A DNA stretch of 59,466 nucleotides from Candidatus Saganbacteria bacterium (GTDB taxonomy: Bacteria; Margulisbacteria; WOR-1; O2-12-FULL-45-9), in the NCBI GenBank assembly GCA_016219705.1, contig JACRKQ010000012.1:1-59466 (forward strand). The letters run 5' to 3'. Numbering within the stretch: position 1 is the stretch's first letter; every line of letters begins with the position of its first letter. Below, piece by piece: positions 2,510 through 48,993 of this stretch. The notes below the pieces were generated by a model. The model did no database searches, was not told the DNA's origin, and worked only from the letters and a program-made list of their open reading frames with translations. The position numbers and the translations under genes are program-made.

Positions 2510-2510
2510 T
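2480..2510 (+). promoter_or_regulatory. Putative sigma70 promoter for prs-hom
   Basis: TTGATA at 2480 and TATAAT at 2505, 19 bp apart, with an extended -10 (TGT before TATAAT). It lies in the last codons of the truncated miaB and faces prs, whose leader would then contain the 2524-2636 repeat. Confidence 0.5.
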
Positions 2511-2523
2511 CTGCAAAAAGGTT

Positions 2524-2636: not shown

Positions 2637-2656
2637 TACAGGAGGAGCTAACAAAA

Positions 2657-4832: not shown

Positions 4833-4841
4833 TGGCGATCA

Positions 4842-5789
4842 ATGAAGCTTAAGTTTGTCTTAATGGCTGCGGCTGTTGTCTTATGCCTGACAGGTAATCT
4901 GCGAGCGCAGCAAGATCCGCCTTCATCAACGCGCCAAATCCAGCTCTTTGTTGAACCAGCCGCTGGCCGGCAGCCGATTATCGACGCTATAAATGGAGCC
5001 AAACAAGCTATCCGCGTCGAGAGCTACCTGCTGACGGATTTTAAAATTATGCAGGCCTTGCGCGATGCCGCCCGGCGCGGCATCAACGTGCGGATCATCC
5101 TTGGAGCGCCGCCGTACGAAAAAATAAAGTCCCGGACCGGAAATCCTGCTTTTGCCTTAACGCACGCCAAGTTTCTTATAATTGATAATTCACAAGCTTT
5201 CATCATGACGCTTAATCTGACCAAATCCGCCTTTGGCCGCAACCGCGAGTTTGGCGTCATCACCGGTTATCCGGATGACGTCGAAGAGCTCAAAGAATTG
5301 TTTGAAGCGGATTGGGATAGGTCGACCAGCCGGATTGTCAATCGCGACCTGGTCTGCGGGCCCTCTGATTCCAGGGTTAAAATACTCTCTTTTATTGACG
5401 GGGCAAAAAAATCGCTGGAAATTTACAATGAGGAGCTTCAGGATAAGGAGATTGAAAACCATTTACTGGCTGCCGTCGGCCGCGGAGTGGACGTTCGGCT
5501 TATCCTTCCCCCGGTGAAAAACGATCGCGATCCCAATGCCTTTGGCCAGCCGCGGCTCCTGGCCGGCGGGGTGAAAATTAACTGGCTGCAAAAACCGTTT
5601 GTCCACGCTAAAATGATTTTAGCCGATCGCCGGCGCGCTTTTGTCGGCTCGCAGAATTTTTCTCCCGCTTCCCTGGACCGCAACCGCGAAGTGGGAATTT
5701 TGCTCGATGAAGCGACCGCAATCAAGACATTAGCGGAAACTTTTGACGCAGATTGGACCAAAAGCCGGCCGGCGGAGCTTCCCCGATAG
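4842..5789 (+). CDS. Secreted phospholipase D-family protein, two HKD motifs
   Basis: A 315-residue protein with a Sec signal peptide (MKLKFVLMAAAVVLCLTG, cleavage near LRAQQ). Two PLD phosphodiesterase motifs are intact: HAKFLIIDN...NLTKSAFGRNRE near residue 107 and HAKMILADRR...SQNFSPASLDRNRE near 255, so it should fold as a pseudo-dimeric single-chain PLD enzyme outside the cytoplasm. Substrate (lipid or nucleic acid) cannot be read from sequence; the Nuc-like size and repeated HxK...N pattern also suit an exported nuclease. It follows hom by 9 bp and its stop overlaps the next start. Confidence 0.85.
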   Translation: MKLKFVLMAAAVVLCLTGNLRAQQDPPSSTRQIQLFVEPAAGRQPIIDAINGAKQAIRVESYLLTDFKIMQALRDAARRGINVRIILGAPPYEKIKSRTGNPAFALTHAKFLIIDNSQAFIMTLNLTKSAFGRNREFGVITGYPDDVEELKELFEADWDRSTSRIVNRDLVCGPSDSRVKILSFIDGAKKSLEIYNEELQDKEIENHLLAAVGRGVDVRLILPPVKNDRDPNAFGQPRLLAGGVKINWLQKPFVHAKMILADRRRAFVGSQNFSPASLDRNREVGILLDEATAIKTLAETFDADWTKSRPAELPR

Positions 5790-7270
5790 TGGCGAAGAAT
5801 TTATTTTTATCTAAAAGCAAGTATCTCCACGGGTTACAGTGCCCCAAATATTTCTGGTATGAATATCATGATAAATCGGCTATCCCGCCGCCGAAGCTGG
5901 CGATCCAGCGGTCTTTTGACGAAGGTAAAAAGATCGGCGAATTAGCGCAAAAACTTTTTCCCGGAGGCCTGTTGTTGGCCAGGGAGAGAGAGCCGCGGCT
6001 GCAACATAAGCAATCGGTTGCTGCCCTTAAATTGCGCCGCCCATTATTTGAACCCGGTTTTGTCTTCCAGCAAACTTATGCGCTGGCCGACATTTTAACC
6101 CCCGTTGGCGACGATGAATGGGACATGATCGAAGTCAAGAGCAGTACCAGCGTTAAAAGCGAATATTATCATGACGCGGCCTTCCAGCGGTATGTTTATG
6201 AAGGGGCTGGTTTAAAGATCAGACGCTGTTTTATTTTACATCTCAATAAAGGATATATCCGTCGCGGCGCATTGGATGTGGAAGCTTTATTTAATAAAGT
6301 CGATATCACCCAGGAATGCCAGGTTCTCGCTGGACAGATTAGCGCCCAGATCGAACTGCTCAATAAAGTTATGGCCAGCCAGGATATCCCGGCGATAAGG
6401 ATTGGCCCGCATTGCGATAAGCCCCACCATTGTCCTTTGAGTAACTTGTGTTGGTCGTTTTTGCCGGAAGAGGACAATGTTTTCCTGCTGAACGGCGGCG
6501 GACAAAAGTGCTGGGAATTGCTGGACCAGGGGATAACGAAATTGACTGATATCCCCGCGAACTACGACTTAAATTTTCGCCAGGTCGCCCAGATCCAGGC
6601 CCACCAAAGCCGCCGGCCTTATTTTGATAAAGAGGCAATCAGGGAATTCCTGACGGCGATAAAATATCCGTTATTTTTCCTTGATTTTGAGACGTTAGCG
6701 ACGGCAGTCCCTTTATTTGACGGGGTCGGCCCGTACCAGCCGGTCCCTTTCCAATATGTTGTTTATTGTCTTAAAAGCGCAGAGAGCTCCCCCGAAAAGT
6801 TTTCTTTTCTGGCACCTGATCGCCAGGACCCGCGCGAGACAATTTTACGCCAATTACAGCAGTTACTGGGAGAAGCAGGCTCAATCATCGCTTACAGCGC
6901 AGCCTTCGAGAAAAATTGCCTGAAGGCGGCGGCGAACGAATATCCAGAATACCGCGAGTGGGTGGAACGGTTGAACAAGCGTTTTGTCGATTTATTAGTG
7001 CCGTTCCAAAAATTTTACTATTACCATCCCCAACAATTAGGGCGCGCGTCGATAAAAAATGTTTTACCGGCCCTGACCGGCCGTTCGTACAAGGGGTTGG
7101 AAATCGGTGAGGGCGGGACGGCCTCCGCCGAATTTTATCGGGTCATGTTTGGGGATAATGTTTCGGCCGAAGAACGGGAAAAAATCCGCGCCGCCTTGGA
7201 AATTTATTGTGATCAGGATACTCTTGGAATGGTGGAGATACTGGAGATTCTGCAGCGGCACGTTAAATAA
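5789..7270 (+). CDS. DUF2779 protein with Cas4/RecB-like nuclease domain
   Basis: The track begins at 5753, but GTG at 5789 overlaps the upstream stop (TAGTG), has GGCGGAG before it, and gives the usual N-terminus VAKNLFLSKSKYL. Residues 1-200 look like a PD-(D/E)xK nuclease of Cas4 type: LQCPKYFWY, DILTP...MIEVKSST, DAAFQRYV, and a cysteine cluster CDKPHHCPLSNLCW that with the N-terminal Cys could hold a 4Fe-4S cluster. The C-terminal half is DUF2779, with an RNase H/exonuclease-like FLDFETL start, AYSAAFEKNCL and YCDQDTLGMVEI acidic motifs. Probable two-module nuclease; pathway unknown. Confidence 0.85.
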   Translation: MAKNLFLSKSKYLHGLQCPKYFWYEYHDKSAIPPPKLAIQRSFDEGKKIGELAQKLFPGGLLLAREREPRLQHKQSVAALKLRRPLFEPGFVFQQTYALADILTPVGDDEWDMIEVKSSTSVKSEYYHDAAFQRYVYEGAGLKIRRCFILHLNKGYIRRGALDVEALFNKVDITQECQVLAGQISAQIELLNKVMASQDIPAIRIGPHCDKPHHCPLSNLCWSFLPEEDNVFLLNGGGQKCWELLDQGITKLTDIPANYDLNFRQVAQIQAHQSRRPYFDKEAIREFLTAIKYPLFFLDFETLATAVPLFDGVGPYQPVPFQYVVYCLKSAESSPEKFSFLAPDRQDPRETILRQLQQLLGEAGSIIAYSAAFEKNCLKAAANEYPEYREWVERLNKRFVDLLVPFQKFYYYHPQQLGRASIKNVLPALTGRSYKGLEIGEGGTASAEFYRVMFGDNVSAEEREKIRAALEIYCDQDTLGMVEILEILQRHVK

Positions 7271-7309
7271 GTTAAAAAGGGAAAACATTTTAACGTATCA
7301 ACATTTTAA

Positions 7310-7675
7310 CTAAAGCGACTCTGCCCATGGTTTTTTCCTCAAAGCCTTCTTTGCTGAAGTTAGTTTTTTCTGTTTCAGCGTCTTCTCCTTAGACCGCCGC
7401 GACCGCCGCCGCTTCTGCCGCCGTATTTTTTCAATTTGTCTTTGTCGTTCCGATTTCTGTTGGTTTAATCTTTCCGCGATCTTTTCCTCTAAACGGCGCC
7501 AGGCTAATAAACGGTTGACGGCCTGGGAACGCTCCTGGGTCATTTTAACTTCAATCCCCGTCGGCAGATGCTTTAAATAGACGCCCGTTGCCGTCTTATT
7601 GACGTTCTGTCCACCCGGGCCGCCGGAGCGGATAAACTTTTCTATGATGTCGCTTTTCTTGATAAAATTGGTCAT
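7310..7675 (-). CDS. Release-factor-like GGQ protein (ArfB/RF-1 domain family)
   Basis: A 121-residue protein with the catalytic loop SGGPGGQNVNKTATGV, which hydrolyses peptidyl-tRNA in the ribosomal peptidyl-transferase centre, followed by RSQAVNRLLAWRRL and a long basic tail (RRQKRRRSRRSKEK) that in ArfB-like factors enters the mRNA channel. It has no codon-recognition domain, so it suits stalled-ribosome rescue rather than termination. I chose the second ATG (7675): AAAGG lies 7 nt upstream, and a TATAAT lies only 12 nt from it. Convergent to the DUF2779 gene. Confidence 0.8.
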   Translation of the reverse strand: MTNFIKKSDIIEKFIRSGGPGGQNVNKTATGVYLKHLPTGIEVKMTQERSQAVNRLLAWRRLEEKIAERLNQQKSERQRQIEKIRRQKRRRSRRSKEKTLKQKKLTSAKKALRKKPWAESL

Positions 7676-7735
7676 ATTGTTGCCTTTATTATACATTAGT
7701 GCTAGAATTTTTTACAATGATGCGTAGAGATTTAA

Positions 7736-7830
7736 CATGCTCGAAACCTAAGAATGAATTCTCGGTTCCTCGCATGAGAATAAAAAAAAATGGAACCGCT
7801 CCGATGTTCATCGGAGCAGGTTCCATTTTT
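7736..7830 (+). promoter_or_regulatory. Putative attenuator ahead of the SLH protein gene
   Basis: Three mutually exclusive helices can be drawn. Helix A pairs CATGCTCGAAACC (7736-7748) with GGTTCCTCGCATG (7764-7776), 10 of 13 pairs. Helix B pairs CGGTTCC (7763-7769) with GGAACCG (7792-7798), perfectly. Helix C is a terminator-like hairpin, AAAAATGGAACCGCTCCGATG (7786-7806) with its complement at 7809-7830, one bulge and a run of five Ts. B would block C and A would block B, the usual anti-antiterminator layout. The ligand or signal is unknown. Confidence 0.45.
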
Positions 7831-9231
7831 ACCAGTTTTAGTTTTTCAATCGTGTTACTGTTCCTGCTGGTCACTGCCGCATTGGCTGCTGACAGCAGTA
7901 TAAAGTTCAAAGATATGCCGGATAATCATTGGGCGGCGCCGGCGGTTTATGACCTGGTTAAGTTAGGGGTGACCAAAGGCTATCCCGACGGGACTTTCCG
8001 GGGTGATAAGCAAATTTCTCGCTACGAAACGGCGCTATTTCTCTCTAAGCTTGCCAAGTCGCTGACTGGGAATTCGACGCTGAAAAAAGATATCGACTTG
8101 TTCCGTCAGGAAATTGTCGCCTGGCAGCAAAAACCGCAAAAAGGGATGTTGGACGGCAGTTACCAGGCTGCCTGGAAGTTCTGCAACCTGCTGGCTAATA
8201 CGGACGCGCGCGGCGCCCTGGCCAATTATCGCCTGCAATTAGGTTCAACTTATAAATTGGGAGACAGCGCTGATATCAGGGTTGGTCTTGACACGACAGA
8301 TTATGGATATTTCAATGATGGGTTATCGACTACCGGAATTGTGGCGACAGATTTATTGGATATTACCTCCAACCTTAAACTTAGCGCGAGTTCTATCGGT
8401 TGGCCCGACCCGGTTGAGCTCAAGCTCTCTGTCGGGCCGGGGCCCAAGCAGCACACGGCGGACCCGACGGGGATAATTTCCAGCGAAGTTGGCGTTACCT
8501 ATCTTCGGCCGTATACCGGGATTACGGTGGCAACTTCATTCTGGGGGACAAAAGTCGCCGCTGGTTATGAGGCGCGCGGCCACGCAGCTTCCGGTCGCAT
8601 CACGGCCAATAATATTTTCGGAACATTGGGTTATGAGTTCAAAGGGATCCCTTTAATTGATCAATTACAATTGACAGCTACCGGACAGCAGCTTTCAACC
8701 GGCCAATATTCAATCGCGAATCGCGACCTTCGGGCTTCAATCGTCATGAATTTTCCTCTGGGTAATAAAATTGAAGCTGGCGGGACGTTGGGCTTAAGCG
8801 GTCAGGATCGTTCAAAATGGTTGGTTGGCGGCAGTGTGGCCATCAATGACGTTTGGGATACGGGGACTGTCGCGGTCATAAAAGCGGCCAAAGTCGGCGC
8901 TGGTTTTATCGACGATCGTTTTGCGGCGGCGGAGATTGACTTGGCCGGTTTTGATAATTTTAACCGCCCGCTGGTCAATGGCTCGGTAAATATCGGCGGA
9001 CAAATTGTCCAATCGGTTTCGGACGATTTAAAACTTGTCGGTAAAGGCGATGTTCGCCTGCAGCCGGATTATACTTATGCCGGGATCAAAGGACGGCTAA
9101 CGGCTGAAGGAGGAATTTCTTACGCTGTTGCGCCCAATACGACTTTTGACGCCCGCTATCGTTTTTCTCATGATAAATCAACCAACACGAAATCAGATCT
9201 CGCCGCGTTGGGGCTCGTTTACCAGTTTTGA
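7774..9231 (+). CDS. SLH-domain outer-membrane porin-like protein
   Basis: Signal peptide with hydrophobic core SIVLLFLLVTAALAA, then one S-layer homology domain (FKDMPDNHWAAPAVYDLVKL ... YPDGTFRGDKQISRYETALFL), a short helical stretch, then about 370 residues of alternating beta strands ending in LAALGLVYQF, a terminal-Phe barrel signature. This is the plan of porins that anchor the outer membrane to secondary wall polymer. The start is uncertain: MRIKK at 7774 gives a basic n-region, but ATG 7804 lies exactly in the loop of the leader hairpin, and the upstream ORF start (7699) would not give a signal peptide. Its stop overlaps birA. Confidence 0.85.
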   Translation: MRIKKNGTAPMFIGAGSIFTSFSFSIVLLFLLVTAALAADSSIKFKDMPDNHWAAPAVYDLVKLGVTKGYPDGTFRGDKQISRYETALFLSKLAKSLTGNSTLKKDIDLFRQEIVAWQQKPQKGMLDGSYQAAWKFCNLLANTDARGALANYRLQLGSTYKLGDSADIRVGLDTTDYGYFNDGLSTTGIVATDLLDITSNLKLSASSIGWPDPVELKLSVGPGPKQHTADPTGIISSEVGVTYLRPYTGITVATSFWGTKVAAGYEARGHAASGRITANNIFGTLGYEFKGIPLIDQLQLTATGQQLSTGQYSIANRDLRASIVMNFPLGNKIEAGGTLGLSGQDRSKWLVGGSVAINDVWDTGTVAVIKAAKVGAGFIDDRFAAAEIDLAGFDNFNRPLVNGSVNIGGQIVQSVSDDLKLVGKGDVRLQPDYTYAGIKGRLTAEGGISYAVAPNTTFDARYRFSHDKSTNTKSDLAALGLVYQF

Positions 9232-9782
9232 TAATCGGCAAGCAGATTTTCCACTATTCAACAATAGATTCCACCAATACGGAAGCGAAGCGGTTAATCG
9301 CTTCTGGTCAGGCGGCTGAAGGAGCAGTTATAATTGCCGACGCGCAGACAACCGGCCGCGGTAAACCGGGAAGCAGCTGGTTCTCGCCGCCGGATTTGGG
9401 CCTCTACTTGTCAGCGGCGGTCAAACCTTATAAAAATCAAGCGGACTTAACGAACCTAACGTCTGTGGCCGCTGCCGCTGTCGCGGACTTAATTAAAGAT
9501 TTGACGCGATTGGAAGCCGCTATTAAATTGTCTAATGATATTCTGCTTAGCGGCAAAAAAGTTTGCGGAATACTTTGCGAACATTTAACCTCCGGGTTTG
9601 TTGTCATTGGCATTGGTTTAAACGTTAATCATCTGTCAACCTCTTTTCCGGCTGAATTGGCCGGTCAGGCGACGTCATTACAGATAGAGACGGGAGATGT
9701 TTTTGATTTGACCGCCGTGCGGCAAAAAATATTAGAACAGCTCAATCGTCATTACCTTGCCTATTTACGAGAAATTTGCTAA
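9228..9782 (+). CDS. birA: Biotin--[acetyl-CoA-carboxylase] ligase, short form
   Basis: Attaches biotin to the carboxylase carrier protein. Conserved features: STIDSTNTEAKRL, the GRGKPGSSWFSPP adenylate loop, the KLSNDILLSGKKVCGIL substrate motif (usual KWPND) and GIGLNVN. At 184 residues it lacks the N-terminal helix-turn-helix, so it is not a repressor, and is also short at the C-terminus, where a small SH3-like domain normally sits. TTG start, overlapping the previous stop as TTGA, implies translational coupling. The last codons contain the -10 box of aroH. Confidence 0.85.
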   Translation: MIIGKQIFHYSTIDSTNTEAKRLIASGQAAEGAVIIADAQTTGRGKPGSSWFSPPDLGLYLSAAVKPYKNQADLTNLTSVAAAAVADLIKDLTRLEAAIKLSNDILLSGKKVCGILCEHLTSGFVVIGIGLNVNHLSTSFPAELAGQATSLQIETGDVFDLTAVRQKILEQLNRHYLAYLREIC

Positions 9783-9791
9783 CATAAATAG

Positions 9792-10142
9792 ATGGCACTA
9801 CGGGGAATTAGAGGCGCTACGACAGCTGATGCGAATGAACGCGAGGTAATTGTCTCTGCTACCAAAGAGCTATTGCAGGCCGTGGCGGCCAAAAACAAAT
9901 TAAAGATCCCGGAGATTACTTCTATTATTTTTACCACTACCCCCGATCTGAATGCGGAATTTCCGGCGGTGGCGGCGCGGGAGCTGGGGTGGGAACAGAC
10001 CCCATTGTTATGCGCGACAGAAATTGCCGTGCCGGGGAGTTTGGGTCTATGTATCCGTGTTTTGCTCCACATCAATAGCAATAAAAAACAAGCCGCAATG
10101 GAGCACGTCTATCTCAAAGCGGCGGTCGGGTTGAGGAGGTAA
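9792..10142 (+). CDS. aroH: Chorismate mutase, AroH type
   Basis: Monofunctional chorismate mutase of the trimeric Bacillus AroH fold, converting chorismate to prephenate. 116 residues: RGIRGATTADANERE near the N-terminus with the active-site Arg, TTTPDLNAEFPAVAAREL in the middle, and IRVLLHIN...VYLKAAVGLRR at the end. A TGCTAACAT extended -10 lies six bases before the ATG, so the mRNA may be leaderless. It is followed after 7 bp by DAHP synthase, the first step of the same pathway. Confidence 0.9.
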   Translation: MALRGIRGATTADANEREVIVSATKELLQAVAAKNKLKIPEITSIIFTTTPDLNAEFPAVAARELGWEQTPLLCATEIAVPGSLGLCIRVLLHINSNKKQAAMEHVYLKAAVGLRR

Positions 10143-10149
10143 CTATTAA

Positions 10150-11169
10150 ATGATCATTATCATGCGGCCGGATGCGACAGAGCGGCAGGTTAATTCTATC
10201 GTTGATAAACTCAAAGCCCATGGCTTTGGCGTCCATCTCTCCAAAGGGGTGGAGCGGACCGTTATCGGCGCGATTGGCGACAAGAGCTCGATTGAACTGG
10301 AAAGCCTGCAGATGATGCCGGGGGTTTCCGAGATTGTCCCCATCAGAAAACCGTACAAACTTGTCAGTCGTGAATTCAAGAAAGAAGATACCATCGTTTC
10401 TCTCTCGGCCGAGGTTAAAGTAGGCGCCGGGCAAAAAATCCTGATCATTGCCGGACCCTGTTCGGTTGAAGGGGAAAAACAGATTATCGAAATTGCCGAA
10501 TTGGTAAAAGCCGCTGGGGCTAATGCTTTGCGGGGCGGGGCGTTCAAGCCCCGGACTTCCCCTTACGCCTTTCAAGGTTTAGGGGAGACCGGCCTTAAAT
10601 ATTTAGCCGCGGCCAGTAAAAAGACCGATTTGCCAATCGTCACCGAAGTTATGGACACGCGCGACGTCGCTCTCGTCGCCAAATATGCCGATATGCTGCA
10701 GGTTGGCGCGCGCAATATGCAAAACTTCAATTTGTTAAAAGAAGTCGGCAAGACTAAAAAACCGATTTTACTTAAAAGAGGGCCGGGTTCAACAATAAAA
10801 GATTTATTGATGTCGGCGGAATACATATTGTCGGAGGGGAATAATCAAGTTGTCTTGTGTGAACGGGGAATTAAAACCTTTGAAGATTCCACCCGTAACA
10901 CTCTTGATCTGAATGCTGTTCCGGTCATCAAAAAATGGTCGCATCTGCCGGTTGTAGTTGATCCCAGTCATGGGACAGGAGAGTGGGATCTGGTACCGGC
11001 GATGGCCAAAGCGGCGATTGCGGCGGGGGCGGATGGGCTGGCGATAGAAGTCCATCAGAAACCCGAAGCGGCTTTATCCGACGGCGCGCAATCATTGAAA
11101 CCGGATACTTTTGCCCAATTGATAAAGGAGCTGCGTCTGGTGGCGAAAGCGGTGGGGCGGGAGTTGTAA
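10150..11169 (+). CDS. aroF: 3-deoxy-7-phosphoheptulonate synthase, type I-beta
   Basis: Condenses PEP and erythrose 4-phosphate to start the shikimate pathway. 339 residues: an N-terminal ferredoxin-like regulatory domain ([18 protein letters not shown], about residues 1-70) followed by the barrel with [45 protein letters not shown] and [23 protein letters not shown] is 10 nt upstream. The regulatory domain suggests feedback inhibition by an aromatic amino acid or prephenate. The last codons ([10 protein letters not shown]) recur in diverged form at the end of glpD, 7.8 kb downstream. Confidence 0.95.
11140..11169 (+). repeat. aroF 3' end, left copy of a diverged direct repeat
   Basis: GTGGCGAAAGCGGTGGGGCGGG... 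to the TAA matches 18914-18943 at 22 of 30 positions. Six codon pairs differ, four of them only at the third base. It marks the left edge of the accessory block 11170-18943. Confidence 0.4.
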
Positions 11170-11924: not shown

Positions 11925-11981
11925 AATTGATAAAAATTGATATTCATTGAAATTTCTGATTTTAATCAAGGATAAACAATC
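11925..11981 (+). promoter_or_regulatory. Conserved hairpin leader of the first methyltransferase copy
   Basis: TTGATAAAAAT pairs with ATTTTAATCAA across TGATATTCATTGAA..., followed by AAGGATAAACAATC and the ATG. The same leader precedes the gene at 13574 (about 13515-13573), where TGATAAAAAT/ATTTTTATCA pairs perfectly. Two copies with compatible folding suggest a functional RNA leader or operator, or simply a recent duplication. Confidence 0.45.
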
Positions 11982-12266
11982 ATGGCAATGCATCGTATTC
12001 CCAGACCTTTATTGAGACCGAGCGCTCATCCTCGCCTTCAGGCGAACTGGGCGATAAAAAATGCGCGCTTGCTAGCCCAAAGAAAAACACAAGCAGAAGA
12101 GAGACGCCAACTTTTAGAAAAGCTGGATGGCTCTAAACTGCACACGCTAGAGGCAGTTGCTGGAGCTGAATCAGCCTTTAATGAACTAAAAGTGAAAAAG
12201 TTGCTGCATTTAGCGGATTTTCAAATGGTTTTAGGTCTATATCAAATCAACGCCAGAAAAGTTTAG
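11982..12266 (+). pseudogene. Internally deleted copy of the methyltransferase family
   Basis: The 94-residue product begins MAMHRIPRPLLR, like the 13574 gene (MAIGRIPGHLLR), and ends LYQINARKV, like the 14656 gene. The SAM-binding core is missing. The final 44 bp are identical to 15240-15283. It is best explained as a recombination product joining the 5' end of one copy to the 3' end of another. It has an SD (AAGGA) and could still be translated, but no methyltransferase activity is expected. Confidence 0.6.
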
Positions 12267-12279
12267 GCGTGTTTTCATA
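12236..12279 (+). repeat. 44-bp exact direct repeat, copy 1
   Basis: TCTATATCAAATCAACGCC... through GGCGTGTTTTCATA, identical to 15240-15283. It covers the last codons of two methyltransferase copies and a small ACGCC/GGCGT stem after the coding end that may act as a weak terminator. Confidence 0.8.
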
Positions 12280-12395
12280 GAAATATGAAAATTTAGCGTT
12301 TTTAAATCAAGCGGCGGAATCGCCGACCCCTATTTTGTGATTTGATTCTTTTAGTTTTTTGGGGTATTCTTATTTTTTAGCGGGAGGTGATGGCA

Positions 12396-13226: not shown

Positions 13227-13573
13227 CTCTGGTCTGCTAAAACCGTCGGGCTGGAGCTTTAGGGTCCCCGAATCTTGCCAGCTTAAAAAATCTCAAATCT
13301 TATCTCAAATCTCTTTCCCGTATCATCTCGAAGATTTATCCCAAATTTTTTCTCAAATGGCACAAATTATTCCCTAATCATTATTTGATTTTGACGGTTT
13401 GAGAATAATTTTGGTAATTAGTGAATTAGATTGGAGATAGATTTATTGGTGATAATTTGGGAAGGTGATTAGTGATAAAATTTGGGATTTTATGGCACAC
13501 AGGCCAATACTCAAAAATTGATAAAAATTGATATTCATGTGAAATTTCTGATTTTTATCAGTGATAAATAGGC
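13227..13573. other. AT-rich intergenic stretch with short repeats
   Basis: No gene seen. It has two TCTCAAATCT-like units near 13288-13312, several ATTAGTGA/GTGATTAG units near 13418-13476, and the conserved hairpin leader of the next gene from about 13515. The repeats resemble degenerate intergenic repeat elements. Confidence 0.5.
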
Positions 13574-14659
13574 ATGGCAATAGGTCGTATCCCAGGACAT
13601 TTGTTAAGACAAATAACACTCTCCCATCCTCATCAACGCGCCGGTTGGGCGGTACCATTAGAAGATCTTTGTCATGCGGGAGAGAGAAGCCGTCACGAAA
13701 AAATTCGGGAACTAGTTTTGCAGGATTGCCCAGAAGAGGCCAGCTTTTGGTCAGATACATATGATAGGAACGACACTTCTTTGGCAGAATATAGTTTACG
13801 AAGGGAACTACACAGGAAAAGAATGGTTATCGCTTTTCAAAAATTATCTTTGAGCAGTCATCTTGATTATCATGATCTTGCTCTACTTTATTATGCCCTG
13901 CAATCTGGCCGGTATTGTTTAGGAACGGGGGGTAATGCCGGAATTATTGTTACCGCACTGCGAGATTTAAAGGTGCGGCGCATTTCTTCTCCAAACATTT
14001 TAGTTTTGGGCTTTTCCTCCGTCTACTCATTAGAAAATCTTGCGGCGCTTCTTAAATTAGTCGGCTTTAAGAATGCCAATATTGTAGCGTTGAATATTGC
14101 TCTTGCTCCTTTGACTATGGCCAAAGAAGAATTTGGCGGGAAAATTTGCGGCTATCCTATAAGTTATGTGAAAGGCGACGCCAGAGAATTGCCCTTTGCC
14201 AACAGCTCCTTTGATTTGGTTGCCACGCATCTGTTTTTAGGACATTTCCCTAATAATGAAAAAAAATGTGTTTTGGAAGAGGCATACCGCGTGCTGCAAA
14301 AAGGCAGAGACTTTGTAGATGCAGAAATAGTTGTTGAGCAATGGTTCGATAAGGCTGAATATATAAAGACTTTTGCAGAGTTAGGAAAAAAATTTAAAGG
14401 AACAAGTAACGAACGAAAACGCGCCGGCGATTACTTAAAAAAATTTGCCTCTTTTTTCCCATTTTATCCCTATACCTTATCCCCTTATTTTAATCCAGGG
14501 TATCCTTATGAGCGATTATTTGATGTTTCGTGGTTTATTCGCATTAAAGTAGACTTAGATAAACAGGGCTTTGTTGCAGATCTTCACGGTTCAAATCCTC
14601 AAGCCTTATACCCTGGCTGCGAAGCCCGCATTTGCCAGATTCGGGCGCGGAAAGAGTGA
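13574..14659 (+). CDS. SAM-dependent methyltransferase-like protein, full-length copy
   Basis: 361 residues. The first 120 are an unknown helical domain; a class I methyltransferase fold follows: ILVLGFSSVYSLENLAALL as a degenerate motif I (normally GxGxG), acidic motif II replaced by IVALNIA, then YVKGDARELPFANSSFDLVATHLFLGHF as motifs III/IV and a LEEAYRVLQKGRDFVDAE post-motif. Loss of the glycine-rich loop and of the motif II acid makes SAM binding uncertain. The leader hairpin is shared with the 11982 copy. It overlaps the next gene as GTGA. Confidence 0.7.
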   Translation: MAIGRIPGHLLRQITLSHPHQRAGWAVPLEDLCHAGERSRHEKIRELVLQDCPEEASFWSDTYDRNDTSLAEYSLRRELHRKRMVIAFQKLSLSSHLDYHDLALLYYALQSGRYCLGTGGNAGIIVTALRDLKVRRISSPNILVLGFSSVYSLENLAALLKLVGFKNANIVALNIALAPLTMAKEEFGGKICGYPISYVKGDARELPFANSSFDLVATHLFLGHFPNNEKKCVLEEAYRVLQKGRDFVDAEIVVEQWFDKAEYIKTFAELGKKFKGTSNERKRAGDYLKKFASFFPFYPYTLSPYFNPGYPYERLFDVSWFIRIKVDLDKQGFVADLHGSNPQALYPGCEARICQIRARKE

Positions 14660-15270
14660 AAAAGAATGATTACAAATTTACAACCATATATTCCCTGGAA
14701 AATCTGGGGGCGATCCTATCTCTGGTTGGTTTTAAAAACGCCACAATTGTTGCCCTGGATATTTCTGCCTCTCCTCTGGAAAAAGCCAGGGCGCATTTCG
14801 GCCGGACCGTCTTTGGGTTTCCGGTTGAATACGTCCAGGGCGATGCCTTGGCGCTGCCCTTCGACAATGATAGTTTTGACCTCGTAACGACGCATCTTTT
14901 TATGACTCATATCGCGGATCAACGCAAGAATCAAGTACTGGCTGAGGCCGGCCGCGTTTTAAGACGCGACAGGGAGTTTATAGATGAAGAGATTGTTGTT
15001 CCACCCGGAACCGATCTGGACAAATATAAATGGTTTTATGCAACTTTAGCAGATGAATTTCCTGGAACACCAGAGCAGAAAGCTAAGGTCGCGCAATATA
15101 TGGTGGAACTTGGCGCTTATTCTGAATTTTATCCCTATGGAAGCGAGAAATCTCTCGTCGCAAGTATGAATAGTAACGGGTTTGAGGCGCACTTAGGCGG
15201 TCTTCAAGAAAAACGTCTTTATGTGAACGTCTGTGCCTCTCTATATCAAATCAACGCCAGAAAAGTTTAG
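14656..15270 (+). CDS. Methyltransferase-like paralogue lacking the N-terminal domain
   Basis: Residues from YSLENLGAILSLVGFKNATIVALDIS onward align with the second half of the 13574 protein (shared VQGDALALPFDNDSFDLVTTHLFMTH, RVLRRDREFID). The N-terminal domain and motif I are cut away. The motif II acid (ALDIS) is present, unlike its neighbour. GTG 14656 overlaps the previous TGA, so the two are translated in tandem; the pair may work together as one split enzyme, or this may be a decaying copy. The last 44 bp match 12236-12279. Confidence 0.6.
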   Translation: MKKNDYKFTTIYSLENLGAILSLVGFKNATIVALDISASPLEKARAHFGRTVFGFPVEYVQGDALALPFDNDSFDLVTTHLFMTHIADQRKNQVLAEAGRVLRRDREFIDEEIVVPPGTDLDKYKWFYATLADEFPGTPEQKAKVAQYMVELGAYSEFYPYGSEKSLVASMNSNGFEAHLGGLQEKRLYVNVCASLYQINARKV

Positions 15271-15283
15271 GCGTGTTTTCATA
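15240..15283 (+). repeat. 44-bp exact direct repeat, copy 2
   Basis: Identical to 12236-12279; it covers the codons for LYQINARKV and the following 15 bases. Exact identity between otherwise diverged genes points to recent recombination. Just downstream, 15286-15345 is an open stretch (INSDLSEDDLNDFRQFLK, stop) that looks like the tail of another lost gene. Confidence 0.8.
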
Positions 15284-15376
15284 AAATATATTAATTCCGA
15301 TTTATCCGAAGATGATTTAAATGATTTCAGGCAATTTTTAAAATAGAGTGAAATTATTTGTAGAAGGGGTCGAGAA

Positions 15377-23423: not shown

Positions 23424-23439
23424 TTTTTTTGCTTGATAC

Positions 23440-23473
23440 AAAAGCCTCATCTCCTTCGGGGGATGAGGCTTTT
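23440..23473 (+). terminator. Intrinsic terminator after the pilin gene
   Basis: AAAAGCCTCATC...GATGAGGCTTTT stem with a CCTTCGGGG loop region. Symmetric A and T runs make it usable in both directions. Confidence 0.85.
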
Positions 23474-23483
23474 CGGTGATATA

Positions 23484-25763
23484 ATGATTTTTACAAAAAA
23501 AGATGGCTGGGCGCTCCTTACTTTTCTCGGTCTTACGCTGCTTTTTTTCGCCCCCTTCCTTACGGGGGAACAAATTTTAGGCTTCAAGGATCTTTCCCGC
23601 TATTTTTATCCCTTGCGCTTCCTGATGGTCGAGCAGGCCAAAAGCGGACACTGGCCCTTATGGAACCCTTATCTCTTTTGCGGTTTCCCTTTGTTAGCGA
23701 CGCTGCAGATCTGTTTCTTTTATCCCTTAACTCTCCTTTATTATTTTTTACCCTTTAATTTAGCTTTTAACTATTTCACCATCCTGCATTATTTCCTGGC
23801 GGCGGCGTTTATGTATTGCCTTTTGCGTCACTATGATCTTAATCGCTGGAGCGCTCTTTTGGGCGGCTTGCTTTTTAGTTTTTCCGGCTATCTGCTCTCG
23901 GTTTACAACATGAATACCTCTCTAGCGGCCGCCGTCTGGCTGCCGCTGGCGGTTTTATTTTTTGACCGCTGGATGAATGGCGGAAAATTTTCCAATCTTG
24001 CCGGACTGGCGGTCTCTCTGGTTTTAACTTTCCTCGGCGGCGAACCGACAATAATCTATATGACAATATTATTATTATTCGCCTATGCGGTTGTTTTTTC
24101 CCAAACCCGGCGGCAGGGATTTATCAATTTATCGGGGCTAGCTTTAGCCTGCGCCATGGCGGCCGGTTTGGCGGCGGCGCAGCTGCTGCCGTTTATCGAA
24201 TTGGCGCGATTATCCGATCGAACGGGAAAAATTGCTTATGATCTAGCGACCTTCCGTTCTTTTCCGCCGCGGGAGCTGATCAATTTTATTTTTCCGTATT
24301 TTTTTGGCAATGCCGCCCAGTTTGGCAATTTGACGGAAAATTTGATCGGCAAAAATTTTCAAGACTGGTTAATTTCTCCCTATCTGGGGATATTGCCTTT
24401 GCTCTTTGCCGCTTTAGCTTTTAGCCGCCGCCGTCGGCTGGCCTGGTTTTGGCTGGGGACAGCGGTGGTCGGCCTGTTTCTAGCCTTTGGCTGTTATACC
24501 CCGTTTTATCATCTGGCTTATTTATTGCCGGGGATATCGATGATCCGCTATCCAGTCAAATATCTTTTTCTCGTCAATTTTTCTCTCGTCTGGCTGGCGG
24601 CGGCGGGATTTGACAATTTATCGCGCCAGCTAAGGAATGATTCTAAACAACTGGCTCGTATGTGCCGCTGGCTGTTAAATGCGGCTTTTTGTTTGGCTTT
24701 GGCCGCGGCTGCGGCCAATATATGCAAGGCGCGGATAATTCAATTATTGGTCGGGCATTATCCGGCGCAGGCCGCCCAATATTTTATCGTCCTGCTGCGC
24801 AATCTGGTTGATTTTAATCTTTTCAGCTTAACGCTGGTTAGCGCCAATCTCTTTGGTTTCGCTGTTTTGCTGCGCTGGGCCAGCCAAAAAAAAATTCACC
24901 CGAATATTTTTGCCGGTTTGATCTGCCTGCTTATCGCTGTCGACCTGTTCGCCAACAGCATGACGATAATGGTGCCGATCAATGCGAAATTATTTACTGC
25001 TCTCCCCGCGACGTATCGCCGCATGATTGAACAACCGACCAGAGGAAGATTTTTCTATATGCCAGCGGTGGAACAGCAAAACCGGATGACATTCGGCGAA
25101 AATTACGACGAAGCAATGTGGGAGGCCAAAGAGAACTTTACGGCCAATTGGCCCCTGCCGCACCATCTGGCCGATTTTTACGGTTATGAATCAATTAAAC
25201 CCCGGGCGCTGATGGATTATTATCGGAAAGAGTTTGGCGGCGGGCAAAAAATGACCAGCCAAAAACTTAACCAATTATCCGCCTATAATGTTAAATTTAT
25301 TATTTCTGCCGTACCGCTAAATTTCCCGCAACTTAAAATCATAAATGGCCGGTTTAAATTCGGCCGCAATTTTTATCTTTATGAAAATAACGGAGTTTTG
25401 CCGCTGGCCTATATGATCTTTCATGGCCGGACGGCTCGTATGAGCCGACAGACTATTCTTGATTTAAAAACGGCGCAGATTTTAAAATATGAACCAGATG
25501 AAGTTGTGATTAAAGTCGAGACTAAGAAGGCGGGCCAGCTATTTTTATCGGATTCATATTATCCCGGCTGGCGGGCCTGGGTGGATGATCAGCCAGTAAA
25601 AATCGAAAAATCCCAGGGCTTATTCAGGATTGTTCCGGTGCCGATGGGGGAACACCTGGTCCGTTTTCATTACGAACCGCGGTCCTTTTATCTCGGCGGA
25701 ATTATTAGCCTGCTTACTCTCGGGTTAATCCTGGTAGGGGCGGTAGTATTGCGTTACTATTAA
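23484..25763 (+). CDS. YfhO-family polytopic membrane protein
   Basis: 760 residues with 11-13 predicted membrane spans starting WALLTFLGLTLLFF, the family motif GFKDLSRYFYPLRF...WPLWNPYLFCGFP in the first loop, GFSGYLLSVYNMN and GEPTIIYMT, and a C-terminal beta-rich extracytoplasmic domain (LFLSDSYYPGWRAWVDDQPV, FHYEPRSFYLGG) before a last span. YfhO relatives are GT-C-fold glycosyltransferases of envelope polymers; the Asp after GFK is the likely catalytic residue. The track start (23433, TTG) lies in the terminator. ATG 23484 overlaps a TATAAT, so the start is not certain. Confidence 0.82.
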   Translation: MIFTKKDGWALLTFLGLTLLFFAPFLTGEQILGFKDLSRYFYPLRFLMVEQAKSGHWPLWNPYLFCGFPLLATLQICFFYPLTLLYYFLPFNLAFNYFTILHYFLAAAFMYCLLRHYDLNRWSALLGGLLFSFSGYLLSVYNMNTSLAAAVWLPLAVLFFDRWMNGGKFSNLAGLAVSLVLTFLGGEPTIIYMTILLLFAYAVVFSQTRRQGFINLSGLALACAMAAGLAAAQLLPFIELARLSDRTGKIAYDLATFRSFPPRELINFIFPYFFGNAAQFGNLTENLIGKNFQDWLISPYLGILPLLFAALAFSRRRRLAWFWLGTAVVGLFLAFGCYTPFYHLAYLLPGISMIRYPVKYLFLVNFSLVWLAAAGFDNLSRQLRNDSKQLARMCRWLLNAAFCLALAAAAANICKARIIQLLVGHYPAQAAQYFIVLLRNLVDFNLFSLTLVSANLFGFAVLLRWASQKKIHPNIFAGLICLLIAVDLFANSMTIMVPINAKLFTALPATYRRMIEQPTRGRFFYMPAVEQQNRMTFGENYDEAMWEAKENFTANWPLPHHLADFYGYESIKPRALMDYYRKEFGGGQKMTSQKLNQLSAYNVKFIISAVPLNFPQLKIINGRFKFGRNFYLYENNGVLPLAYMIFHGRTARMSRQTILDLKTAQILKYEPDEVVIKVETKKAGQLFLSDSYYPGWRAWVDDQPVKIEKSQGLFRIVPVPMGEHLVRFHYEPRSFYLGGIISLLTLGLILVGAVVLRYY
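25704..25748 (+). repeat. yfhO 3' end, left copy of a diverged direct repeat
   Basis: ATTAGCCTGCTTACxCTCGGGTTAATCCTxGT... matches 27048-27092. Within the first 37 bp the only differences are the third bases of three codons (ACT/ACG, CTG/CTA, GTA/GTG). Confidence 0.8.
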
Positions 25764-25816
25764 AATCGTGTTATCATAGTAATGTAATCCTAGTGATTAA
25801 TTAAGGAGATGGTGTT

Positions 25817-27052
25817 GTGCGGGAAGAATTATTTGAGTTGAGCCGGAATTTGGTGGAAAACTACAATCGTCAATATCAGCGGTATTTCTTAAAGGAAAAC
25901 AAGCTTGACAGTCGATTGTCTGTAATTATTGGCCAGCGAGGAATCGGCAAGTCAACGGTGATTGTCCAGTATTTGCTGTCTCATTACGCAAAAGAACTTA
26001 AGGCTAATAAAGCGCTTTTTCTCCAAGCGGACCATTTTCTGGTCAATGAGATCTCTTTATATGAAATTGCTGAACAGTTTAACTCCCTGAATGGGAAAGT
26101 GCTCTGTTTTGATGAAATCCATAAATATGGCGACTGGTCAAGGCAGTTGAAGAGTATTTATGACACTTTTCCTGACTTGAAAATAATTGCTTCCGGCAGT
26201 TCCGCCCTGGAAATTTATAAAGGAACCCATGATTTAAGCCGGCGGGCGATTGTTTATGAAATGAGAGGGCTTTCCTTTAGAGAATTTATAGAAATTACCC
26301 TCAATCTGACACTAGAAGAACATACTTTGACAGATATTCTGCGTCAGCATGCTGAAATTGCTCGCGATATTGCCCAGCAGCTTAAAAGGAAAAACGAAAA
26401 AATTATCCCCTTGTTCAAAAGATATTTAGCTTATGGATATTATCCTTATTTTTTGGAGTTCGAAAATAAGGTCTTGTATTATCTTACGTTGGAACAGAAT
26501 ATTCATACGACGATAGAGGCGGATTTGCCCGCGATAAATCCCAATCTATCCGGCAGCAGCGTAAAAAAAATAAAAAAACTGCTGGCCTTTATCGCCAGCG
26601 CGGTCCCTTTTACCCCCGATCTAAAAAAACTTAAAACAATTTTGGATGTTGGTGATGAAAGAACGCTGAAGTCGTATTTGAAATATCTCGAAGACGCTGG
26701 TTTAATTCTTACCCTTACGGCGGGAGGCAGGGGAATGCGGGAGCTGGAAAAACCGGAGAAAATTTATTTGAATAATTTTAATCAAGCTTATGCTATCTCT
26801 GGTCATTACGGCGCTAATGTTGGCTGTATTAGGGAAACTTTTTTTGCCAATATGTTATCTTCGTTGGCGCGGCTCTCCTACGCTAAACAAGGGGATTTTC
26901 GTGTGAACGATAGGTTTGTCTTTGAAATAGGCGGCAGGAGTAAAAAATTTGATCAAATAAGCGCCATAAAAGATTCTTTTCTGGCGTTGGATGACATCGA
27001 ATACGGCAGCGGTAACAAAATCCCTTTATGGCTCTTTGGCTTTTTATATTAG
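25817..27052 (+). CDS. AAA ATPase with DUF4143 domain
   Basis: 411 residues, GTG start with AAGGAG 9 nt upstream. AAA_14 domain: Walker A GQRGIGKSTVIVQYLL near residue 38, Walker B VLCFDEIHKYGDW near 97, sensor ASGSSALEIY. The C-terminal DUF4143 part (VFEIGGRSKKFDQI) is a restriction-endonuclease-like fold. Family function is unproven; members behave as mobile accessory genes. The gene is flanked by two copies of the yfhO 3' end, and its own stop lies in the right copy. A broken relative is at 557-1003. Confidence 0.85.
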   Translation: MREELFELSRNLVENYNRQYQRYFLKENKLDSRLSVIIGQRGIGKSTVIVQYLLSHYAKELKANKALFLQADHFLVNEISLYEIAEQFNSLNGKVLCFDEIHKYGDWSRQLKSIYDTFPDLKIIASGSSALEIYKGTHDLSRRAIVYEMRGLSFREFIEITLNLTLEEHTLTDILRQHAEIARDIAQQLKRKNEKIIPLFKRYLAYGYYPYFLEFENKVLYYLTLEQNIHTTIEADLPAINPNLSGSSVKKIKKLLAFIASAVPFTPDLKKLKTILDVGDERTLKSYLKYLEDAGLILTLTAGGRGMRELEKPEKIYLNNFNQAYAISGHYGANVGCIRETFFANMLSSLARLSYAKQGDFRVNDRFVFEIGGRSKKFDQISAIKDSFLALDDIEYGSGNKIPLWLFGFLY

Positions 27053-27092
27053 CCTGCTTACGCTCGGGTTAATCCTAGTGGGGGGAGGGGTA
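27048..27092 (+). repeat. yfhO 3' end, right copy
   Basis: Diverged copy of 25704-25748. In the yfhO frame it encodes ISLLTLGLILVG and stays open to a TGA at 27135, adding a basic tail (TQKRQRRNYRF) typical after a last membrane span. This may be the original yfhO end, now detached. Confidence 0.7.
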
Positions 27093-28140
27093 ACTCAAAA
27101 GCGTCAGCGGCGAAATTATCGATTTTCCCAGCTTTGATGATGCCGTCAGCTCCATTCTTTAAAGCTCTTAAGCCATCATGCGAATCTAAATCATGAATTA
27201 ATATAAAACCGCTAAACGATGGTTTTTTGGCAAAACTAAACCCTTGGGCAGGATCTCTTAGTAAATGAACTAAAATGGGCGTGTCCATAGCTGGCATTGA
27301 GCCAGCGATGATCAGGAGATCGACCGGTGGTCTGCTTTCATCAAAAATTCTCTCAAGAACATCTTCCGAATTTGACCTAATCTCTGTCACAATAATTTCT
27401 GGAAGCAGGCTTCTAAGAGTAGAAGCAGTGGCTGGATCAGTTGAAATAACCAATATTTCTCTTATTCTGTCAGGTCTCCCTTCCTTTATAATAGGCACAG
27501 GAAAATTTTCCGATATTGCCAATCCGGGTGCCGTGGAGACCGGGTGGACGGTTGGCGGCGGGGCGACAACTAGCGGAGCGGGGGGAAGGGGTTGGGTAGA
27601 GGTCACAAAATGTCTTTTCAAAAAGTCAGTGGGGTCAGACTTCATCGGATTAGCAAAATCGGCAATTCCAAGGGCAATCATCATCGCATTTACCGCAGAA
27701 GAATTTGCTGCAATATAGCCGCTGTATCCATTATCTCTTAATAATTTTCCTAATTCCAGGCCGCTTATCCCGGGCATATCATTATCCATAAAGATAAGAT
27801 CAATTTTCTGTTCTGCGGCCAGAGCTAAAACTTGATCCTTGATCGGTTGCTGTTGATTTACTGTGACAACCTTTACGCTGTCATCCAACTCACCTTGAAT
27901 AAGCCCTTGATAAAGCTCGAGAATGTTTGGATTATCATCCACAACTAGAATTGTTCTTATAATCTCCGGTCGGCCTGGTTTAGCAGAAGCCGCTTTAATC
28001 CTAAGAGCACCTTGGGGAATATTTAGTTGTTCAAGTTTCGCCTCATCCGCAGAAGTACAAAAGTCTCTTATTCGTGCAGATGGAGTAGCTAGTCCCACTC
28101 GAGTCAGTGTGGTTCGTAGAAAATCTGTTATTCTAGACAT
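27058..28140 (-). CDS. Protein with two response-regulator receiver domains
   Basis: 360 residues, SD GGAGG 10 nt upstream. Receiver 1 (about 62-175): TILVVDDNPNILELY, phospho-acceptor in IDLIFMDNDMPGISG, with the usual Thr/Ser in ANSSA. A Pro-rich linker (PPAPLVVAPPPTVHP) leads to receiver 2 (about 228-345): ILVISTDPATAST and LLIIAGSMPAMD, where the acceptor Asp is replaced, so it is a pseudo-receiver. No output domain. The last residues (LGLTRA) are encoded antisense to the yfhO repeat. Partner kinase not in the window. Confidence 0.8.
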   Translation of the reverse strand: MSRITDFLRTTLTRVGLATPSARIRDFCTSADEAKLEQLNIPQGALRIKAASAKPGRPEIIRTILVVDDNPNILELYQGLIQGELDDSVKVVTVNQQQPIKDQVLALAAEQKIDLIFMDNDMPGISGLELGKLLRDNGYSGYIAANSSAVNAMMIALGIADFANPMKSDPTDFLKRHFVTSTQPLPPAPLVVAPPPTVHPVSTAPGLAISENFPVPIIKEGRPDRIREILVISTDPATASTLRSLLPEIIVTEIRSNSEDVLERIFDESRPPVDLLIIAGSMPAMDTPILVHLLRDPAQGFSFAKKPSFSGFILIHDLDSHDGLRALKNGADGIIKAGKIDNFAADAFELPLPPLGLTRA

Positions 28141-37024: not shown

Positions 37025-38503
<1,479 letters not shown>

Positions 38504-38528
38504 GCAACCTTGATTTTAGGAGGGAAGC

Positions 38529-39074
38529 ATGAAGAAAATTATCAGTTTGATGTTTTGTCTCTTAATTGTTTTTGCTTTTTGTGCTGATGCTGCCCAAAAA
38601 ACAGTTTTACCACCTAAGCTAAAAATAACTAAAACAAAGAATATTGTCATTCGTCCTGCTCCAGTTCCTTTAGCTGTGAAATCCAAATTAGCTCCGGTTA
38701 AAAGGCTGGTCCTTGAGGCGGGGTTTGCCGGTGGCGCCGGTTTACTTGATTTGGGATATTTATTCCCGCTGTCGGGGAAACCATTTGATCTGAAAGTGAA
38801 CGGGGGGATTGGTTTTGGCAACGGATACAATCTCTGGCTTTTACAAGGGCAATTACGGCATGCTTTTAATTCTGAAAGTTTTGGCGGGATAAGTTTGGAT
38901 TGGGCAAATTATTCGGAAACCGTGAGGAACCTTATTGGTCTTTCTGGCAATGTTGCCAAAGGGGGCAACTTTGGCGTTGGGATCTTTACCGGCAGGATTT
39001 TTGATAAATACAATGTCAAAATCGGTTATAGTTCTGTTTTAGGCGTGAATGTCTCTGTCGGTCTGATGTTTTAG
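38529..39074 (+). CDS. Small outer-membrane beta-barrel protein
   Basis: 181 residues: signal peptide MKKIISLMFCLLIVFAFCADA, a Pro/Lys linker of about 40 residues, then eight or so strands (LVLEAGFAGGAGLLDLGYLF, DLKVNGGIGFGNGYNLW...) ending VSVGLMF. SD AGGAGGG before the ATG. Its 3' end is 5 bp from the detached sua5 tail. A frameshifted small barrel at 48994-49385 may be related in type. Confidence 0.65.
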   Translation: MKKIISLMFCLLIVFAFCADAAQKTVLPPKLKITKTKNIVIRPAPVPLAVKSKLAPVKRLVLEAGFAGGAGLLDLGYLFPLSGKPFDLKVNGGIGFGNGYNLWLLQGQLRHAFNSESFGGISLDWANYSETVRNLIGLSGNVAKGGNFGVGIFTGRIFDKYNVKIGYSSVLGVNVSVGLMF

Positions 39075-39079
39075 TTGTT

Positions 39080-39134
39080 TTACCGTCTTATAATTTTACC
39101 AGAGGTTAAGTCAATTACTTGGGGACTTTTTTTA
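39080..39134 (-). repeat. Detached sua5 3' end (copy 1)
   Basis: In the reverse direction it reads KKSPQVIDLTSGKIIRR-stop, against KKSSQVINLITGKIIRR-stop at the true gene end (39689-39743). The 55 bp differ at only six or seven positions, and the first 23 bp are identical. The TA module lies between the two copies. Confidence 0.85.
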
Positions 39135-39175
39135 TGCTACAATTTAAGAAAGATTATTAAAAAAGGTGGTTTTAA

Positions 39176-39418
39176 ATGAACGCAATAGATGTTAAATACG
39201 CGAAGAAAAAATTAGGACAACTTTTGGCAGGAGTGAATGAGTCTCACGAGCCGGTTTATATAGTCGGTAAAAAATCTTCGGCTGTGATGATTAGCGAAGA
39301 AGACTGGAGCGCGATAGAAGAAACCCTCTGTTTATTGTCTATGCCTGGAATGAGACAGTCCATTATTAAAGGATTAAAGACACCTATTGAAAAATGCCTT
39401 AAAAAATTGGATTGGTAA
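39176..39418 (+). CDS. Phd/YefM-family antitoxin
   Basis: 80 residues: MNAIDVKYAKKKLGQLLAGVNESHEPVYIVGKK, SAVMISEEDWSAIEETLCLL, the classic YefM N-terminal DNA-binding fold with a C-terminal toxin-binding tail. AGGTGG 8 nt upstream of the ATG; TGCTACAAT promoter near 39137. It should repress its own operon and neutralise the following toxin. Confidence 0.9.
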   Translation: MNAIDVKYAKKKLGQLLAGVNESHEPVYIVGKKSSAVMISEEDWSAIEETLCLLSMPGMRQSIIKGLKTPIEKCLKKLDW

Positions 39419-39678
39419 TGTATAAGATTGTTTATACCAAGCAGGCGCAAAAAGACGCCAAAAGGCTTGCTGTTTCCGGATTAAAAGAGAAGACGCAGAA
39501 GCTATTAAAATTATTGGAAGAAAACCCATTTCGCAATCCGCCTGCTTTTGAAAAATTAATGGGGGATTTAAGCGGGGCGTGTTCCCGCAGGATTAATATC
39601 CAGCATAGGCTTGTTTACCAGATTTATGAAAAATTAAAAATTATAAAGATTATTAGAATGTGGTCTCACTACGAATAG
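39418..39678 (+). CDS. YoeB/Txe-family mRNA interferase toxin
   Basis: 86 residues of the RelE superfamily: YKIVYTKQAQKDAKRLA, LLEENPFRNPPAFEKLMGDLSGACSRRINIQHRLVYQIYE, ending IIRMWSHYE, with the His-Tyr pair used for ribosome-dependent mRNA cleavage. ATG 39418 overlaps the antitoxin stop (TAATG); the track's TTG at 39412 is less likely. Confidence 0.92.
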   Translation: MYKIVYTKQAQKDAKRLAVSGLKEKTQKLLKLLEENPFRNPPAFEKLMGDLSGACSRRINIQHRLVYQIYEKLKIIKIIRMWSHYE

Positions 39679-39688
39679 TAATCCCCAC

Positions 39689-40228
39689 TTACCGTCTTAT
39701 AATTTTACCAGTGATTAAGTTAATCACTTGGGAACTTTTCTTTAGTTTAACCCGGCCGCCAAGGACATAATCAACTGCAAGCATTTTAAGTTGCAGGGAA
39801 CTAGAATTTAAAATTGGTGGTTTGCCAGCGATGTTAGCGGAAGTTGCCGCAATCGGGCCGCAAAGTTTGATTAATTGCAAAATAGTTTTATGCGCGGGAA
39901 TTCTAAGCCCGACAGTTTCCAAACCGCCGGTGATTAATTTGGAGACTTTTTGGGTTTTGGGGACAATCAAAGTATAGGGTCCGGGCCACTTTTTTCTGGC
40001 AAAAGCTAAATCTTTATCATTAAAAATGCCCAATTCCTGTGCTTGCTCAATTGTGCCGATTAAAATTTGTAAAGGTTTACTTCTTGGACGTTTTTTTATT
40101 TTAAATATTCGCCTGATAGCTTGAGGCTGGTTCAAGCAAGCGCCGATGCCAAAAACGGTGTCAGTAGGAAAGGCGATAATGCCGCCGTTAAGGATAATTT
40201 TAACCGCCTGTCTGATTTTATTTTTCAT
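39689..40228 (-). CDS. tsaC: L-threonylcarbamoyladenylate synthase
   Basis: Makes the intermediate for t6A37 of tRNA. 179 residues, YrdC/Sua5 domain: GGIIAFPTDTVFGIG near residue 18, KKRPRSKPLQILIG, WPGPYTLIVP, GLRIPAH, GPIAATSANIAGKPP. The extra C-terminal Sua5 domain is absent. ATG 40228 fits a consensus promoter (TTGACT-17-GATAAT) ending 8 nt away. Its 3' end has a second, diverged copy at 39080-39134. Divergent from cysS. Confidence 0.92.
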   Translation of the reverse strand: MKNKIRQAVKIILNGGIIAFPTDTVFGIGACLNQPQAIRRIFKIKKRPRSKPLQILIGTIEQAQELGIFNDKDLAFARKKWPGPYTLIVPKTQKVSKLITGGLETVGLRIPAHKTILQLIKLCGPIAATSANIAGKPPILNSSSLQLKMLAVDYVLGGRVKLKKSSQVINLITGKIIRR

Positions 40229-48783: not shown

Positions 48784-48878
48784 GTTGCCATACAATCATT
48801 GTTTTATTATATTTTGTATGACAACAGATGTCAAAAGTTGCCATACAAAAGTGTTTAAATGGCAGATTGTATGACAAC
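48784..48878 (-). promoter_or_regulatory. Promoter with four operator copies for the nucleotidyltransferase module
   Basis: Consensus promoter on the reverse strand: TTGACA (48829-48834), 17 bp, TATAAT (48806-48811). The 12-mer TTGTATGRCAAC occurs four times in alternating orientation at 48784-48795, 48814-48825, 48837-48848 and 48867-48878 (centre spacings 30, 23, 30 bp). One copy lies within the spacer, so binding should block RNA polymerase. Confidence 0.8.
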
Positions 48879-48993
48879 AGCTCTTTCATGTGATTTGATT
48901 ATTTTTTATGCAATCCATAGTTGAAATTGAGGATATGCGTTTTTATCATAAAAATCTAAATCTTTTAAAAGTAAGCAGGAGCAATTTTCATCT

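Follow-up and report, generated by a model that had tools for sequence, protein, structure and literature searches.

How does a gene for an ATPase come to lie within the 3' end of another gene while leaving that gene intact? This question arises from a locus in a 59,466-nt stretch of DNA (the window; contig JACRKQ010000012.1, assembly GCA_016219705.1) from a Candidatus Saganbacteria genome of 1.47 Mb in 94 contigs. Here a single small ATPase gene of the very common but unexplained PDC-S01 family is flanked by two similar, but not identical, copies of the 3' end of yfhO. The analysis described below suggests that the ATPase gene arrived together with a spare copy of the yfhO end from a different species, and thus that this widespread "defence candidate" is a mobile gene that keeps its landing site working. 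However, the engine that would move it is unproven.

Two copies of the yfhO 3' end

The repeat noted in the preliminary description is real. The two copies are 38 nt long with 35 identities (92%), and a BLAST search of the whole window against itself returns the pair with E = 7.5e-8. The upstream-versus-downstream flank score is 61, compared to a maximum of 34 among 948 mismatched flank pairs. The three differences (ACT/ACG, CTG/CTA, and GTA/GTG) are all at third positions and synonymous. The left copy, which completes yfhO, reads ...ISLLTLGLILVGAVVLRYY to its stop codon, while the right copy is open in the yfhO frame and reads ...ISLLTLGLILVGGGVTQKRQRRNYRFSQL to its stop codon; the window case is one of those where the last residues of the two copies differ. 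The ATPase stop codon lies inside the right copy, and one ORF of 411 aa fills the insert, which carries no integrase gene. The preliminary description had called the ATPase a DUF4143 gene, and this requires one correction: the protein matches AAA_14 (PF13173) and the PADLOC PDC-S01 profiles, but has no match to Pfam DUF4143 (PF13635) at E <= 0.001. It is a diverged member of that family, and its closest relatives share a variant C-terminal motif.

Features of the yfhO locus and other features of the window
Position	Strand	Feature	Basis
23433..25763	+	Host gene yfhO (776 aa membrane protein), completed by the left copy	PF09586, 97.5 bits
25703..25740	+	Left copy of the yfhO 3' end (functional, inferred foreign allele)	38 nt, 92% to the right copy, three synonymous differences
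25741..25763	+	End of yfhO not shared with the right copy (AVVLRYY and stop codon; inferred to have come with the element)	Read from sequence; homology stops 23 nt before the stop codon
25764..25816	+	Short leader of the ATPase gene (expression signals presumed)	Sequence; upstream copies end a median 75 nt before the element start codon over 38 loci
25817..27052	+	AAA+ ATPase gene of the AAA_14/DUF4143 (PDC-S01) family, 411 aa; C-terminal PD-(D/E)XK-like domain with degenerate motif DF...FEIG; stop codon TAG at 27050-27052	PF13173, 85.9 bits; PDC-S01 (PDLC04787), 3e-27 over residues 16-357; model pTM 0.84
27047..27084	+	Right copy of the yfhO 3' end (inferred native, displaced)	Begins at the ATPase stop codon, as in most of the family
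27085..27137	+	Displaced basic yfhO tail, still open: GGGVTQKRQRRNYRFSQL and stop codon	Relatives without the insert have basic tails
39080-39742		YefM/YoeB toxin-antitoxin pair between two 54-nt copies (89%) of the sua5 3' end	Only 2 of 6 differences are synonymous
47768-47792 and 48879-48903		25-nt repeat of an aminotransferase (PF01063) 5' end, bracketing a nucleotidyltransferase gene (PF12281, 47778-48467) and a small ORF	Possibly the same kind of insertion, at a gene start
11925-12286 and 13516-15289		Short ORF (11982-12266) with a 5' region like that of the methyltransferase gene 13574 and a 3' end 98% like that of the methyltransferase gene 14632	Looks like an internally deleted copy of the pair
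37025-38539		ORF with a low-complexity (AAC)n stretch followed by tandem repeats of about 141-144 nt encoding a repeat protein	
48784-48880		Two neighbouring 44-nt repeats (73%), each containing an inverted repeat GTTGCCATACA...TGTATGACAAC	

The interpretation given in the preliminary description, that both copies were under protein selection and that the right copy is the original end of yfhO, is supported. Three changes in one locus are weak evidence for the first claim, but 26 loci together give a pN/pS of 0.18 (see below). For the second claim, the comparison of yfhO C-termini across relatives, which had been proposed as the check, shows that four of the five best same-family yfhO hits without the insert end in basic tails like that of the right copy (QKARQS, KYRVGGVR, SKRQNKQIP, and RQSYQA). 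The outcome named in advance as contradicting the claim, in which all relatives have the left-hand tail, was not seen. The companion search, for a genome in which the exact right-hand tail is continuous with yfhO, found none, because the relatives are too distant. The likeness drawn to the sua5 locus is correct in anatomy, although the differences there are mostly not synonymous.

Bracketing in the PDC-S01 family and the origin of the two copies

The genome of the window holds about 30 AAA_14/DUF4143 genes. At E <= 1e-15, 15 of 30 genomes searched (the window's own and its relatives) have them, with up to 18 per genome outside the window's own, and 100 regions of these genomes were retrieved for analysis (individual loci are given below as L numbers). 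Of 116 family genes in this phylum with enough flank, 38 have direct repeats scoring 34 or more between the upstream and downstream flanks, in contrast to 4 of 214 other ORFs in the same loci (Fisher p 1.8e-15). One of these four controls is a DUF1016/YhcG gene, itself a PD-(D/E)XK nuclease, and YhcG genes tested separately gave 3 of 27. The anatomy recurs: the downstream copy starts a median 12 nt after the element's stop codon. The hosts are conserved genes, including glmS, proA, rsmA, malate dehydrogenase, SecA, UvrD, YmdB, and electron transfer flavoprotein (gene names as read from the Pfam hits), and both 3' and 5' gene ends are used, in both orientations. In L061 (contig C8, positions 995-11166), six AAA_14/DUF4143 genes lie within 10 kb with at least three copies of one gene end, an apparent repeated or nested insertion. 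In addition, a DUF4143 gene in one genome (L173) and a YhcG nuclease gene in another (L329) sit at what looks like the same glycosyltransferase gene start (MPKTIVIIMPAYNAEK).

In 26 loci with an identifiable host gene, the differences between the copies fall at codon positions 26/17/107, giving a pS of 0.34, a pN of 0.060, and a pN/pS of 0.18 over 404 codons; only one remnant codon is a stop. Decay of one copy after an in-place duplication predicts a pN/pS of at least 0.5 and a synonymous fraction of about 0.37, but the observed fraction is 0.63 (p 2e-10; bootstrap over loci, CI 0.55-0.73). Thus, both copies were under protein selection, and one came from another lineage. Of 22 stop-end cases, homology ends within 3 nt of the host stop codon in 11 and before it in 9, as expected for two alleles of a coding gene end. 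That is, the copies are alike as far as the protein is conserved, not as far as a duplicated DNA block would reach.

Which copy is native is seen most directly at glmS in the same genome, where the two copies share 54 of 63 coding bases and 8 of 9 differences are synonymous. Comparison of the glmS ends with 27 relatives did not separate the copies by identity, since both are equally far from all of them. However, the gene that follows the displaced copy follows glmS directly in most same-family and same-order relatives, none of which has an ATPase gene there. So the displaced copy is the resident end, and the completing copy arrived with the ATPase gene; such synteny evidence is available for glmS, not for yfhO itself.

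In Prevotella, elements that are 88-93% identical in protein sit at different places, several with repeats of their own (40-137 nt). A search for empty sites in Prevotella found deoD relatives of at most 81% identity, too distant to assign the copies. In a sample of other phyla, 9 of 83 family genes are bracketed against 7 of 341 controls, although a few of the nine involve terminator- or promoter-like repeats and are doubtful. E. coli yhcG was examined as a further candidate and rejected: the locus varies, but nanQ shows no jump in divergence at its end.

A predicted nuclease domain in the ATPase

The window protein is modelled as an AAA+ domain plus a C-terminal alpha/beta domain, and the residues G39, K45, D99, and E100, in its AAA_14 domain with Walker motifs, are invariant in the alignment. 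A sequence search of the PDB gave no relative, and whole-chain fold searches found only AAA+ relatives (Orc1, RuvB, and clamp loaders). A nuclease fold appeared only when the C-terminal domain of a canonical member was modelled alone. This model (pLDDT 92.9) matches PD-(D/E)XK folds, namely Can2, McrC, EndoMS/NucS, VRR-NUC, and Hjc; the matches are weak in E-value (7e-4 to 2e-2) but consistent in kind, and E...D...ExK residues are invariant in canonical members. The window protein, however, has E-I-G in place of E-x-K, and thus its own nuclease is probably dead. Degenerate subfamilies are bracketed at least as often as canonical ones (Q-V 8/15, ExG 3/5, ExK 27/94), which weakens the case for cutting in cis.

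Proposed homing-like spread and its rivals

The explanation favoured here, held with moderate confidence, is that the 1344-bp segment is a single-gene mobile element consisting of the ATPase gene with, on its left, the 3' end of an orthologous yfhO from another lineage. In this view, it entered the resident yfhO about 90 nt before its stop codon; the imported end completes yfhO, and the native end was pushed downstream as a now untranslated remnant. The analysis itself demonstrates the bracketing, its enrichment in this gene family, selection on both copies, the native status of the displaced copy at glmS, the presence of near-identical elements at different sites in Prevotella, and, as a prediction from the models, the PD-(D/E)XK fold of the family's C-terminal domain. 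That the spread is homing-like is an inference. A break in an unoccupied gene end would be repaired from an occupied allele, copying the foreign gene end plus the element, and the break would most likely be made by the family's AAA+-coupled PD-(D/E)XK nuclease, acting in trans or ancestrally for copies such as this one whose active site is degenerate; neither cutting of the unoccupied allele nor copying into it was assayed. Generic recombination with long flanks would usually carry over both copies from the donor, so diverged copies favour a break at the gene end, but this too is inference. Several observations count against this view besides the degenerate active sites. YefM-type toxin-antitoxin loci, which encode no DNA nuclease, include several bracketed cases, sua5 in this window among them; a few loci (L138, L170, and L173) have identical copies, which would leave an "uncut-proof" site; no donor allele carrying yfhO plus this element was found; and two thirds of family members have no detectable bracket. 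On the other hand, YhcG, an unrelated PD-(D/E)XK gene, shows the same anatomy.

The strong rival, judged possible but less likely, is cargo-independent recombination. Here linear DNA from a relative, carrying the orthologous gene end plus an addictive cassette (ATPase, YhcG nuclease, toxin-antitoxin, or nucleotidyltransferase gene), would pair through the homologous gene end and be joined on the other side without help from the cassette; only events that leave both neighbours intact would survive. Toxin-antitoxin pairs and a nucleotidyltransferase gene do show the same anatomy, as do the nuclease-degenerate ATPases. In one such toxin-antitoxin locus (L350), the bracketing 98-nt coding repeat (81%) looks mostly synonymous, so the foreign-end pattern may not be limited to nucleases. 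However, the ATPase family is bracketed more often (33%) than the YefM loci (6 of 30 by score, one of them attC-like and one at unusual distances), YhcG, or control genes (2%), and the joint lies close to the ATPase stop codon in most cases, which is more regular than random end joining predicts.

Insertion with a long target duplication in one genome, followed by divergence of the two copies, is unlikely. The repeat lengths of about 20-135 bp do match the "order of 100 bp" described for restriction-modification genes (PMC3874152), and some repeats are identical or include non-coding DNA (L138, L170, L173, and the Prevotella locus L268). However, one copy would then be free to decay, which is excluded for the set as a whole by the pN/pS and by the 71% of differences at third positions, and the repeats stop at the stop codon instead of running past it. 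Chance similarity, tandem duplication of yfhO, or an assembly artefact, for which there is nothing beyond the short length of this one repeat, is refuted by the self-comparison E-value, by recurrence in many genomes and many genes, including a genome in 4 contigs (G023, L173-L179), and by rates far above those of mismatched pairs and control genes.

The closest known design is that of the mobile ORFs (mORFs) of fungal mitochondria, found in Allomyces atp6 and in Glomus atp6, atp9, cox2, and nad3 (PMC3630166). In these, a foreign gene C-terminus plus one ORF is inserted in a gene, the native C-terminus is displaced downstream, the two ends differ mostly synonymously, and the host gene is a working hybrid. 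There the ORF is a LAGLIDADG or GIY-YIG endonuclease in mitochondria; here it is an AAA+ ATPase with a PD-(D/E)XK-type domain, in bacterial chromosomes, in up to about 30 copies per genome, and at both 5' and 3' gene ends. Restriction-modification genes inserted with long target duplication (Nobusato 2000, cited in PMC3874152) are likewise small addictive or defence genes without their own integrase between variable direct repeats of around 100 bp, but those repeats are read as target duplications, whereas the copies described here are allelic ends from two lineages that stop at start or stop codons. Integrase elements such as e14 in icd of E. coli also insert in a gene end and supply a replacement; in the present case there is no integrase in the 1.3-kb insert, and each locus uses a different gene. 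One paper was found that mentions DUF4143 and none that mentions PF13635, and no report of the mORF or restriction-modification type of insertion was found for AAA_14/DUF4143 in the literature searched, which lacked most subscription journals.

The window protein and its relatives match the profiles of PADLOC phage defence candidate PDC-S01, and YhcG matches those of PDC-S02. These candidates were defined by position near defence genes, and mobility with gene-end replacement is not part of that description. PDC-S01 is reported as the fourth most common such gene in prokaryotes, with 29,494 bacterial and 9,986 archaeal instances counted as an antiviral defence candidate and validation pending for most PDCs (PMC12988326). 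A more far-reaching reading, which is tentative, is that PDC-S01 is largely a family of self-propagating homing genes: AAA+-coupled PD-(D/E)XK endonucleases that attack conserved gene ends, replace them with an uncuttable foreign version, and were listed as defence candidates because they accumulate near other mobile and defence genes. The gene-end signature makes the question of what PDC-S01 does directly testable with an occupied/empty allele pair. If many of these genes are mobile units that edit the ends of housekeeping genes (glmS, proA, rsmA, malate dehydrogenase, SecA, and others), then defence counts, the history of gene ends, and the role of a huge unstudied family all need rereading.
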